A stretch of DNA of 7,713 nucleotides from Bifidobacteriaceae bacterium (GTDB lineage: Bacteria; Actinomycetota; Actinomycetes; Actinomycetales; WQXJ01): the NCBI GenBank assembly GCA_031256885.1, contig JAIRPS010000078.1, positions 1 to 7,713 on the forward strand, in the 5' to 3' direction. How positions within the stretch are numbered: position 1 is the first letter of the stretch; each line of letters starts with the position of its first letter. This document shows, piece by piece, positions 2,887-7,442 of the stretch. Made by a program: the position numbers and the translations under genes. A model generated the notes under the pieces. That model was not told where the DNA came from. It made no database searches and saw only the letters and a program-made list of their open reading frames with translations.

Positions 2887-4113
2887 TTGGCACGCCTGAT
2901 TGGTGGAGTGGGCGGTGGTATCGCCGCCTACAAAACGGCCACTTTGATTCGTCAGCTGGCGCGCGCCGGTCATCAGATTCGAGTTGTGCCAACCGAGGCT
3001 TCTTTGCATTTTGTTGGGGTAGCCACCTGGCAAGCTTTGAGCGGCGAAATCGCTACATCTTCAGTTTTTGACCATGCTGATTATGCCAACCACATTGCTT
3101 TGGCACAGCAGGCAGATTTGGTAATAGTTGCCCCGGCAACAGCTGATCTTTTAGCTAAACTGGCGCATGGATTAGCCGATGACCTGCTGACCTGCACAAT
3201 CTTGGCTACCTGCGCACCGGTGCTGCTGGCACCAGCTATGCACACCCAAATGTGGCTGAACCCAGCCACACAAGCCAATCTGCAAACTTTGACTGCACGC
3301 GGTTTTCGATTAATTGGCCCAGGCCAGGGGCCTTTAGCTGGTCCGCCCAGCCAGCCGGATAATCCGGCAGGGCCGGGACGCATGAGTGAACCACTGGAGA
3401 TTGCCGAGGCAGCAGCCGCATTGCTTCAGCCACATCAGCCTCTACGTTGCTACCGTGTGCTAATTACCGCTGGCGGTACACATGAACCAATTGACCCAGT
3501 GCGTCACCTGGCCAACGGTTCGTCCGGCCGCCAAGGTTTTGCTTTAGCGAAGACTGCTCGGCAACTCGGTGCCACTGTCGACTTGGTAGCTGCCAATAGT
3601 TTGCTGCCGACACCCTTTGGGGTGACTCGTCATGATGTAGTAACTGCCGCTCAAATGCACCAAGTGGTGATGAATCTGGCAGCCGACTGCGACATTGTGG
3701 TGATGGCGGCAGCCGTCGCCGATTTTACGTTAGCTGAGCCCGGCTCGGTCAAGCTGAAACGGTCAGGCCGTGATGGTTTGACATTGCATCTGGTACCAAC
3801 TGTTGACATTTTGGCTGAGTTAGTGGGGTCGCGTCAGGAGCGGCAAATAATTGTTGGTTTCGCCGCCGAGACTGACTCGACCGATCAACAACTATTAGCT
3901 GCTGGGAGCGCCAAAGCCCGTTCCAAAGGCACTGATTTATTGGTATTGAACCAGGTAGGGCCAGGAATTGGGATTGCTAGCCAGAATAATCGAGTCTGGC
4001 TGCTCAACCACCATGGTGAGCAGGTTGGGCAAGCTGATGGCAGCAAAAAGCATGTTGCTGAGGTAATCATGTCACACCTGTGCGCTATGGTCACTGGTCA
4101 TGAAAGCAACTGA
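2887..4113 (+). CDS. coaBC: Bifunctional phosphopantothenoylcysteine decarboxylase / phosphopantothenate-cysteine ligase
   Basis: CoaBC joins cysteine to 4'-phosphopantothenate (CTP-dependent CoaB) and decarboxylates the product to 4'-phosphopantetheine (FMN-dependent CoaC), in coenzyme A synthesis. The 408-residue product has both domains. CoaC covers about 1-180: [11 protein letters not shown] (6-16) for FMN, His69 in NHIAL as likely catalytic base, [15 protein letters not shown], and APAMHTQMW with His119 where many bacteria have Asn, a variant I recall from mycobacteria. The stretch 149-166 that usually bears a catalytic Cys (ACG..G.GR) reads PLAGPPSQP...GPGRM with no Cys. CoaB starts near 190: [14 protein letters not shown], Asn210 in [16 protein letters not shown], and Lys289 in VKLKR. 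The TTG start is the only start codon that keeps the whole FMN motif; it has no clear ribosome binding site and probably relies on coupling to rpoZ ten bases upstream. Its 3' end overlaps metK by 14 bases. Confidence 0.95.
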
Positions 4114-5299
4114 CAGCACCCGTCTGTTCACCTCCGAATCGGTGACAGCCGGACACCCAGACAAGCTTTGTGATCAGATTTCTGACGCTATTTGCGATGA
4201 TCTATTAGCTCAAGACAAATCATCCCGAGTAGCCATTGAAGCATTAGTTACCCCAGGTCAGGTCCACGTTGCTGGTGAGGCGCGGACTGGCGGGTTTTCC
4301 GAAATCCCGGAAATTGTGCGCGATGTATTGCTGCGCGTTGGCTATGACCGTGCCGAAGCCGGCATTGATGGTTACTCCTGTGGTGTTTCAGTGTCAATCC
4401 ATGGGCAATCACCCAATATCGCTGGCGGGGTTGAGCAAAGTTGGGAAGCCCGCAGCGGCTCACAAGACCGCCGTGACCAGCAAGGTGCTGGTGATCAAGG
4501 ATTGATGTTTGGTTATGCCAGTGATGAGACAGACAGTCTCATGCCAATGCCTATCCATGCTGCACACCAACTAGTGCGGGCTTTGGCGAAGGCCCGCCAA
4601 ACCGGACTGGTTGAAGGTTTACGTCCAGATGGCAAAAGCCAGGTCACTGTGCGTTACCAAAACGATTCGCCGGTGGCGGTGGCAGCGGTTGTGCTTTCCG
4701 CTCAGCATGAACCTGGTTGGCAGCTTGAACAGTTGCGGCAGGTGTTGCTGGAACGAGTGATTGAGCCAACCCTTGTCCAAATCGGTTTGCCGTTGGCTGA
4801 CGGTCGGGTATTAGTCAACCCGGCTGGTCGTTTTGAGATTGGTGGACCGGCTGGTGACACTGGGTTGACCGGACGCAAAATCATTGTTGATACCTACGGT
4901 GGTATGGCACGACACGGCGGTGGCGCGCTTTCCGGTAAGGATCCTTCAAAAGTTGACCGTTCCGGTGCGTATGCAGCGCGTTGGGTCGCTAAAAACTTGG
5001 TGGCAGCCGGTTTGGCCAAACGTTGCGAAGTTCAGGTGGCCTACGCAATTGGGGCAGCTCGACCAGTGGGCATCGCGGTGGACAGCTTTGGCACTGGTCA
5101 GGTGCCAGATTCCGAATTGGTCAGGGCGGTCGCAGCGGTGTTTGATTTGCGGCCATTGGCAATCATTGAAGAACTTGATCTGCTCAATTGCCGTTTTTTG
5201 CCAACTGCTGCCTACGGTCATTTTGGACGGGTTGAACCGGGTTTTTCCTGGGAGCAGACCAACCGGGTGGCGGCATTGCAGGCTGTTGTGGGTGCATGA
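4100..5299 (+). CDS. metK: S-adenosylmethionine synthetase (methionine adenosyltransferase)
   Basis: MetK makes S-adenosylmethionine from methionine and ATP and works as a tetramer in the cytoplasm. The 399-residue length is normal. Motifs in order: [15 protein letters not shown] (8-22) with ATP- and Mg-binding His19 and Asp21; Glu47 and Glu60 in [33 protein letters not shown] (from 128); [47 protein letters not shown] with Lys280 and Lys284; and the C-terminal TAAYGHFGR. The residue before GHPDK is Ala17, where relatives I recall have Glu (VTEGHPDK); this is unusual, but it is not a ligand I know to be catalytic. The ATG overlaps the end of coaBC by 14 bases and lacks an obvious ribosome binding site, so translation is probably coupled. 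It overlaps priA by ATGA. Confidence 0.97.
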
Positions 5300-6519
5300 C
5301 CACAGCCGCAGCCTTACCAGTGGCGCGTTGCTGTCTTGATTTACCGCAAGTACATCTTGACCGCCTGTTTGACTACCAGTTAACCGCTCAAACCTTGGCT
5401 GAAGCGGCTGTCGGTGTGCGGGTGCGGGTGCCTTTTGCCGGGAGGTTGGTCAGTGGTTATCTAATTGAGATAGCCGAACGCAGCCAATACTCTGGCCGAC
5501 TGGCTCCACTGCGCCAAATTGTCAGCAATGTCCCCGTGCTCAGCCCACCGATCTGGCAGCTGGCTGGCACGGTGGCGCAGCGTTTGGCCGGTTCCAGCGC
5601 TGATGTGCTGCGTCTGGCTATCCCGCCGCGCCGCGCCCACATTGAACGCGATCATTGGCCGGATTTGTTGGCCAGTGCTGCACCTAGCCCAGCCAATCAG
5701 CCAGTCGGCCAGACAGGCAATGTCAACGTAGCTAGTGATGCAAGTCAGCCCTATTTTCAGGTCTGGCAGCAATATGACGGAGGGCCAGCTTTTCTCAAAC
5801 ATTTGGCCGATGCCGCAGCCCCCCGCGCTGTTTTCAGCGCCCTACCTTGGGGTGCGACTGCGGCTGGGCAAGCGCCCGGTTGGATGTCAGCGATCATTGG
5901 TGCGGTGGTGGCCACCTTACGTTCAGGGCGCACAGCGAGTGTCAGCTTGCCCGAGGTAGCGCTGGTCAAGCAGGTAGAACCCCTGCTCAAAGCGGCAGTG
6001 GTGGCAGAACAGTGGGCTTCCAGCATTGTTGCCCGTTTAGTTGCCGAGGATGGCCCGGGGGAGCGTTACCGCTCATTTTTATCGCTGCTGGCAGGTCAAT
6101 CATTAGTTGCGCTGGGTACACGTTCGGCGGTCTGGGCTCCTTTGGAGAAACTTGGTTTAGCTGTGATATGGGACGATTGCGCAGGGACGCACCGTGAACA
6201 ACGGGCACCTTTTCCGCATTCGCGGCAAGTTTTGGCTTGGCGGTGTACACAGCAGCAGGCTGGTTTGCTAATTGGTGGGGTGGGTCGCAGCGTCCAAGCG
6301 CAATGGCTGCTTGAGGCCGGATGGGCCAAACAAATCAAAGCTCGCCGTCAAACCTTACGAGCGGTTGCGCCGCACTGTTGGGTGCCTGATCAAACAAGCC
6401 TTGGTGCGCAGCATCCGGGTATTCGTTTGCCGGGAGTGGTGCATCGGATGTTGCAGCGTCAGCTGCTGAGCGGCCCGGTGTTGATCCAAGTGCCCAGGGC
6501 TGGCTATTTGCATTCCTGA
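5296..6519 (+). CDS. priA: PriA-like primosomal protein N', N-terminal part (ends at internal TGA)
   Basis: PriA recognises stalled forks and D-loops and starts reloading of the replicative helicase. This 407-residue part begins with the 3'-DNA-end-binding domain ([20 protein letters not shown], then [19 protein letters not shown]), followed by the winged-helix region and the first helicase lobe. As in other actinobacterial PriA proteins, the ATPase motifs are degenerate: where Walker A should be there is [14 protein letters not shown] near residue 185 with no GKT, and the DEEH-type motif is replaced by WDDCAGTH (292-298). [10 protein letters not shown] follows as in relatives. It should therefore not be an active helicase. 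The ATG lies in an ATGA overlap with metK without a strong ribosome binding site. If translation stops at 6517 the product lacks the zinc module and second lobe and would probably not work alone. Confidence 0.85.
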
Positions 6520-6525
6520 GCTTGC

Positions 6526-7338
6526 GTGCGCTGCCGTACGGCAGCGCGGTGTGGCCATTGCCACGGGCCATTGACCTTGCCTTCACAACAAGCTAACCAG
6601 GCGGTTTGCAGCTGGTGTGGCCAGTTGACAGGAGCATCAGCTTGCCCCCAGTGCGGCGCAGTGGGTTGGCGTTCAGTGCAAATTGGTGCCCGGCGTACCG
6701 CTGAAGAATTCGGTCGAGCTTTTGCTGGTGTGCCAGTGGTGTTGTCTTCGGCTGAAGCCAGCCATGGGGTGATTGCGCAAGTCGGCAGCGAACCAGCTGT
6801 GGTGGTAGCCACCCCACGGGCTGAACCAACCGCCCCCGGCGGCTACGCCGCCGCAGCTTTGCTGGACGGCTGGTTGACCAGTGCAGTGGGCGGTTTAGAA
6901 GCCAGTGTGTTGGCATTGGGACGGTGGCTTGCTGCCGCCTGTTTAGTGCGCCCAGCTGCTGCCGGTGGAGTGGTGGCATTGGTTGGTGAACCAGCATTGC
7001 GTCCAGCCCAAGCCCTGGTGCGTTGGGACCCGCAAGGCTTAGCTGCCCGCGAACTGGCGGAACGTCAAGAACTTGGTTTACCGCCATCGGTCATTTTGGT
7101 GGCGATCACTGGTGCGGGCGGTTTAGCCGAGCAGTTCGTTGCAACAATAGACATAACTAAGGCCAGCTTTACCATTTTGGGACCAATGCCAGTGGATTCC
7201 TCTAATCAACGTTGCTTGCTCAAAACCAGTCTTGATCAAGGCCGGAAGCTGGTTCAAGCCGTGCGAGCGGCTCGGGCACGTTGGTATATGGCAAGCAATC
7301 CGGGGATTGTGCGGATTGAAGTTGACCCCGAACTATGA
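6526..7338 (+). CDS. priA: PriA-like primosomal protein N', C-terminal part (zinc module and second lobe)
   Basis: This continues the priA frame after the TGA. With residues numbered from the priA ATG, the zinc cysteines are 410, 413, 419, 422, 438, 441, 450 and 453, giving the PriA spacing C-x2-C-x5-C-x2-C...C-x2-C-x8-C-x2-C. Downstream come IGARRTAEEFGRAF (lobe 2), VVVATPRAEPTAPGGYAAAALLDGW, RWDPQGLAARELAERQELGLPPSV and a C-terminal domain ending VRIEVDPEL, all family-like and undamaged. If made separately, the nearest start is GTG 6526, six bases after the TGA, with no good ribosome binding site. That start would lose Cys410, the first zinc ligand, which argues against a designed split protein and for readthrough or plain inactivation. 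Full conservation suggests any inactivation is recent. Confidence 0.7.
   Translation: MRCRTAARCGHCHGPLTLPSQQANQAVCSWCGQLTGASACPQCGAVGWRSVQIGARRTAEEFGRAFAGVPVVLSSAEASHGVIAQVGSEPAVVVATPRAEPTAPGGYAAAALLDGWLTSAVGGLEASVLALGRWLAAACLVRPAAAGGVVALVGEPALRPAQALVRWDPQGLAARELAERQELGLPPSVILVAITGAGGLAEQFVATIDITKASFTILGPMPVDSSNQRCLLKTSLDQGRKLVQAVRAARARWYMASNPGIVRIEVDPEL
6528..6547 (+). repeat. Perfect 20-bp palindrome (hairpin) 8 bases after the priA internal TGA
   Basis: GCGCTGCCGTACGGCAGCGC is its own reverse complement. In RNA it forms an eight-pair GC-rich stem with a GUAC tetraloop. It starts nine bases after the TGA (eight-base spacer 6520-6527). It lies inside the codons for the first zinc knuckle (CVRCRTAARC), so codon constraint explains some but not obviously all of the symmetry. 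It lacks the bulged U and loop expected of a bacterial SECIS element. Confidence 0.7.
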
Positions 7339-7442
7339 CCGGCTTGCCAACAACTTGGCCCCGCCAAAGCCCCGCGCTGCTGGCCGGCATGAACCAGTTG
7401 CGTCGCAAGCTGATATGGCAGCAAATCGAAAAAAACAGTTAG
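7335..7442 (+). CDS. Hypothetical 35-residue ORF overlapping the priA stop
   Basis: ATG 7335 overlaps the priA TGA as ATGA, the same arrangement as at the carB-pyrF and metK-priA junctions. The predicted peptide is short and basic, beginning MTGLPTTWPRQS and ending WQQIEKNS, with no motif I recognise. It has no visible ribosome binding site and would depend on coupling to priA. It could be a remnant of a lost downstream gene or chance. Another frame (7232-7495) is open across the same region but begins inside priA and looks like a shadow. Confidence 0.25.
   Translation: MTGLPTTWPRQSPALLAGMNQLRRKLIWQQIEKNS

Follow-up and report, generated by a model that had tools for sequence, protein, structure and literature searches.

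An active PriA helicase of the E. coli and Klebsiella type is, we take it, marked by a Walker A stretch (GSGKT) and a DEEH box. According to the accessible text of PMC4504706, the PriA of Deinococcus radiodurans, whose Walker boxes are poor, was demonstrated to be a pseudohelicase; it retains DNA binding, and there is evidence that it contacts DnaB. In-frame stops in bacterial genes are described, in the sections of Belinky et al. 2021 at hand (PMC7918605), as widespread and as persisting mostly at the scale of population polymorphism. For UGA codons recoded as selenocysteine, the portion of PMC13188914 used here defines the bacterial SECIS element by a 4-nt loop starting with G, a stem of 8-9 bp, a distance of 16 nt from the UGA and a minimum free energy below -7.5 kcal/mol, and it states that nearly all selenoproteins have Cys homologues. 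We describe a priA gene in a window of 7713 bases of actinobacterial DNA (56% GC), the whole stretch that was analysed, in which a single in-frame TGA is genuinely present in the assembled sequence.

The interrupted priA frame and its neighbours

The window carries, in order, the 3' part of carB, then pyrF, mihF, rpoZ, coaBC, metK, priA and the start of another gene, and metK lies directly 5' of priA, as it does in L001, the best-matching locus (its genome is G001). The features that bear on the interruption are as follows.

4100..5299, + strand: metK, intact; its stop and the start of priA overlap (ATGA); from the ORF and family-model matches
5296..6519, + strand: N-terminal part of priA up to the in-frame TGA, 407 aa (3'-DNA-binding domain, PF17764, and degenerate helicase lobe 1)
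6517..6519, + strand: in-frame TGA, codon 408; V, L, I, M or T in readable relatives (from sequence, alignment and relatives)
6520..7338, + strand: C-terminal part of priA, 272 codons (eight zinc-module cysteines and C-terminal region), with its own stop, TGA 7336-7338
6526..6528, + strand: GTG, the nearest possible restart codon, which would lose the first zinc cysteine (from sequence and ORF list)
6528..6547, no strand: perfect 20-nt palindrome GCGCTGCCGTACGGCAGCGC (RNA hairpin with loop GUAC), located 8 nt past the TGA within zinc-module codons
6678..7338, + strand: 220-aa C-terminal ORF from GTG 6678, protein-database entry P0001

The priA frame opens at ATG 5296, closes at TGA 7336-7338 and is broken once, at codon 408 [(6517-5296)/3+1 = 408], leaving 407 and 272 codons that are both otherwise open; in the frame of ATG 5296 the site reads TAT TTG CAT TCC TGA GCT TGC GTG CGC TGC. 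When the halves were searched apart, the N half matched the NCBIfam model NF011452 at model positions 39-420 of 708 (1.6e-106, 357 bits) and the C half at positions 423-704 of 708 (5.1e-71, 240 bits); the whole-protein cut-off of this model, 980 bits, is not applicable to parts, and only 23 of the 118 class genomes considered below exceed it. An alignment (A1) of the two window halves, P0001 and 14 relatives has no indel at the TGA site, and a frameshift or indel as the cause was rejected on the grounds that both sides share one frame with no gap between them. All eight zinc-type cysteines are kept after the lobe-1 region, and the TGA stands two codons before the first of them (6523-6525). The window gene is thus like actinobacterial PriA (NF011452, PRK14873 group; PF17764; relatives also carry a precomputed annotation, PF27106) in that both halves match, metK adjoins and the eight cysteines are kept, and it differs by the in-frame TGA, which breaks the uninterrupted coding sequence of the NF011452 family. 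Judged from these matches, the halves plainly appear to be parts of one homologous gene, beyond chance.

Column 408 was readable in 64 of 80 loci (V in 38, L in 20, I in 3, M in 2 and T in 1; the other 16 lacked a motif match) and in 154 of 240 fetched proteins (L in 103, V in 42, M in 4, I in 3 and T in 2; the other 86, many of them fragments, had no motif at the site). Neither Cys, nor Trp, nor a stop occurred at this column in the 64 loci and 154 proteins read. An earlier note on this DNA had claimed an in-frame TGA in an otherwise intact priA, matches to actinobacterial PriA on both sides in the same frame without a gap, a position two codons before the first zinc cysteine, a hydrophobic residue at that position in relatives and the loss of a zinc ligand on restart at GTG 6526, all of which hold. 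The alignment with priA of relatives that it proposed as a check on conservation of the TGA did not settle the matter, as the sequences read are all too distant to decide it.

TGA ends carB, pyrF, mihF, coaBC and metK, five of the six other genes whose stop falls in the window (rpoZ, ending in TAA, is the sole exception), as well as priA itself, and none of these six genes has an internal stop; therefore the standard code applies, and an alternative code was rejected because TGA serves as the stop of these genes. TGG is present in six of the eight coding stretches of the window, and a tRNA scan of the window found none.

The frequency of mid-gene stops was assessed in an even sample of 118 genomes from the class to which G001 belongs; 111 of them had a match to NF011452 and seven did not. 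Four of the matches were flagged with a stop, at codons 2, 5, 3 and 6 of the match, which is its very start. No mid-gene stop was found among the PriA matches of the 111 genomes, and loss of priA by a stop is therefore rare among them; many of these matches are partial, and some (e.g., G026, G045 and G082) lie in pieces with differing open frames, which could be frameshifts.

Divergence and constraint

The nearest PriA proteins were about 45-48% identical to the N part; for the C part, the best-scoring, P0002 (from a 1228-base contig), was 54% identical over 83% and P0004 57% identical over 78%. For MetK, three metagenome proteins reached 69, 67 and 66% identity and the remaining matches listed (the best 120 of 8000) 63-65%; among the class genomes listed the range was 60-64% (386 of 394 class genomes had a match). 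Because the relatives are this distant, dN/dS and the question of a shared stop are out of reach. A near-mode plasmid search and searches of viral contigs by protein and by DNA pattern gave no match. As a separate observation, the genes of the window are unusually divergent from known actinobacteria and perhaps come from an undescribed deep lineage.

Constraint was compared at columns at least 98% constant in 63 relatives, drawn from the 80 loci, in which metK, coaBC and both priA parts were readable; the relatives' proteins were the stretches that tblastn aligned over 75% or more of the query. Of these near-invariant columns, the window differed at 20 of 185 in metK and 19 of 117 in coaBC; the counts for priA were proportionally lower, 3 of 61 for the N part and 2 of 47 for the C part. 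The ratio of the mean tree distance between the window and the others to that among the others was 2.19 for metK, 2.06 for coaBC, 1.68 for priA N and 1.35 for priA C. The choice of relatives biases these comparisons in favour of PriA, and most of all of its N part: the loci used are the 80 of 578 that are most similar to the N half of the window PriA. A regression test for decay gave residuals of +0.67 points for the N half and +11.2 points for the C half, which are extrapolated, as only one pair of relatives is as distant as the window in MetK, and the column counts were relied on instead; in this regression, stops within three aligned stretches (rpoZ of L075 and L069; coaBC of L067) were written as X. 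By the column counts, the lineage is divergent overall and priA no more than the other genes, and constraint is as strong after the stop as before it. Neither lost constraint nor further lesions, either of which would have marked a pseudogene, was found; a young pseudogene would look alike, and an old pseudogene seems unlikely. Since neither half shows decay, the stop is young, is tolerated, or is an error; the constraint data fit a young stop, an error and a stop that is read through alike and do not separate them.

A putative pseudohelicase-type PriA

The Walker A stretch and DEEH box of Klebsiella PriA (4nl4) have no counterpart in the aligned window priA, and by pattern a P-loop or DEEH box was found in none of the 80 loci (L001-L080) and none of 120 proteins (P0121-P0240), two sets that may overlap. 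The earlier note's description of the N part as ending with helicase lobe 1 accordingly needs correction, since neither the window nor any relative screened by pattern has these motifs. Judging by motif content, the actinobacterial PriA branch sampled here looks to consist of pseudohelicases, and since both motifs are absent the stop cuts no active helicase; what would be lost is the zinc module together with the C-terminal region of a protein presumed to bind DNA and load the replisome. The likeness to the Deinococcus protein, as far as the consulted part of PMC4504706 goes, is that Walker A and B are not kept and ATP-driven unwinding is not expected; the difference is that Deinococcus belongs to another phylum and its PriA was tested in vitro, whereas the window priA is known from sequence alone. 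The literature searched held no biochemical test of an actinobacterial PriA lacking these motifs. Nothing on actinobacterial motifs or interrupted genes appeared in the retrieved portions of PMC3290774, PMC5720831 and PMC2587704, and a literature search for an interrupted priA gave one paper, which concerned mealybug symbionts.

Origin and consequence of the stop

The explanation that we favour, with about even confidence, is a single-base nonsense change in the priA of a divergent actinobacterium, young enough that no further damage has accumulated. The stop itself, the intact frame on both sides and the absence of signs of decay are observations; from them we infer a genuine base, its origin in a single substitution, termination of translation at the TGA and loss of function. 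One substitution would have created TGA at codon 408, and under the standard code the product would be a 407-aa fragment with the 3'-DNA-binding domain and a lobe 1 that is catalytically degenerate. Lacking the zinc module and C-terminal region, this fragment would probably leave PriA function lost or greatly lowered in the cells that carry it, and the allele would most likely be a short-lived one of a strain or population. The locus resembles the cases of Belinky et al. (PMC7918605, in the text available) as a single stop in a constrained gene that fits a short-lived polymorphism or a leaky stop, and it differs from them in that those stops are common to two or more species, whereas this one is known from a single sequence that lacks close relatives. 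Two findings count against a young allele: most genomes sampled from the class have a priA match (111 of 118) and none of these matches has a mid-gene stop, and there is no close relative to show the stop confined to one strain. The earlier note had offered either a fresh loss or a leaky or recoded stop giving a short and a long PriA; the former is favoured by the lack of a second lesion and of excess change at conserved sites, while the latter gained no positive support.

If the stop is real and fixed, this would be an actinobacterium living without full PriA, and the case would bear on the role of a helicase-dead actinobacterial PriA. At present the case amounts to a single base in a single contig, and the part of PMC7918605 seen here already describes this kind of change for bacteria in general.

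The TGA could instead be a consensus error arising from sequencing, low coverage or strain mixing in the assembly, the organism's own priA being intact, and to this we give a limited but real chance. The gene is otherwise undamaged and constrained, the protein-database products come from the one contig of 7713 bases, and the class genomes with a match have no mid-gene stop, all of which speaks for such an error; against it, the six other genes of the window carry no other lesion, and P0001 stands for two member sequences from one contig, so that a second, very similar C-terminal ORF may exist. Nor did the search with the N half, which returned proteins of 224-712 aa, contain a near-identical full-length copy. 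The N part of the window was not among the results of that search as an entry of its own. A consensus error is, on this balance, a serious rival to a young nonsense allele, if the less probable of the two.

A real but leaky stop, with near-cognate readthrough giving some full-length PriA beside the 407-aa form, is improbable. UGA is the leakiest bacterial stop, which counts in its favour. The two halves remain constrained, a stable hairpin lies 8 nt downstream of the TGA, and frequent readthrough is argued for in the available sections of PMC7918605; a young stop predicts the same constraint, however, and TGA is absent from all relatives read, none of them close. The fold is ordinary beside relatives: that of the 45 nt after the site (-24.7 kcal/mol) was equalled or bettered by 12 of the 64 relatives with a sense codon there, and an 86-nt fold gave z = -1.69, with 13 of 200 shuffles equally good. 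The underlying palindrome is the only spacerless perfect one of at least 16 nt in the window. Synonymous shuffling rarely produced a perfect 20-nt palindrome: 3 of 20000 shuffles had one within the initial 60 nt of the C part, and 4 of 3000 had one at any position in that part. The hairpin was rejected as a special signal and is left as an unexplained coincidence. Nothing specific favours readthrough, and we consider very improbable the more elaborate proposal of a lasting, partly read-through TGA that sets the level of full-length PriA, with a DNA-binding 407-aa form, a little full-length pseudohelicase PriA and stimulation by the palindrome hairpin.

Also highly improbable, and somewhat more so, is a split gene whose two separately translated polypeptides work together. 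The distance from the stop to GTG 6526, 6 nt, is presumably short enough for reinitiation, and the C-terminal ORF from GTG 6678 is listed as a protein; on the other side, the product from GTG 6526 would lose one of the eight zinc-module cysteines and that from GTG 6678 all eight, no promoter-like site was found in 6300-6800, and no relative read has a stop at the site. A terminator right after the stop was rejected, the hairpin having no T-run, and a terminator scan of 6300-6800 gave one site, at 6722, where shuffles averaged 0.8.

Selenocysteine at codon 408 hardly seems credible on sequence grounds. In the consulted part of PMC13188914 the bacterial bSECIS selenoprotein genes have a UGA followed by a hairpin of the kind that formally fits here, the window hairpin satisfying the bacterial constraints given there, and among the window's seven natural gene ends only that of rpoZ (TAA) is followed by a SECIS-like hairpin. 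The fit is commonplace, however, and unlike those genes the window priA has no Cys homologue among the relatives read: run without the energy limit, the same test was passed by 426 (45-nt fold) or 335 (60-nt fold) of the 2225 gene codons of the window, that is 15-19%, and by 18 or 14, respectively, of the 64 relatives at the homologous sense codon. Rfam gave no match up to E = 1. Reassignment of TGA to a sense codon such as Trp in this organism appears equally far from credible, nothing having been found for it and the use of TGA as a stop, the use of TGG and the residues at column 408 all standing against it.

Flanking regions

Differences in gene content from L001 were observed on both sides of the coaBC-metK-priA block. 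L001 carries gmk (L001:1523-2113, PF00625) between pyrF and coaBC; in the window, the mihF-rpoZ gap (2485-2613) is without an ORF of the size of gmk (guanylate kinase) and contains an inverted repeat with perfect 13-nt arms at 2512-2524 and 2540-2552. On the 3' side of priA, L001 has fmt (7055-7987, PF00551), which is not so in the window; there, a 35-aa ORF at 7335-7442, whose ATG overlaps the priA stop, is followed by a partial ORF from 7502, and both are without a family match. The partial ORF presumably resembles PafB/WYL proteins.
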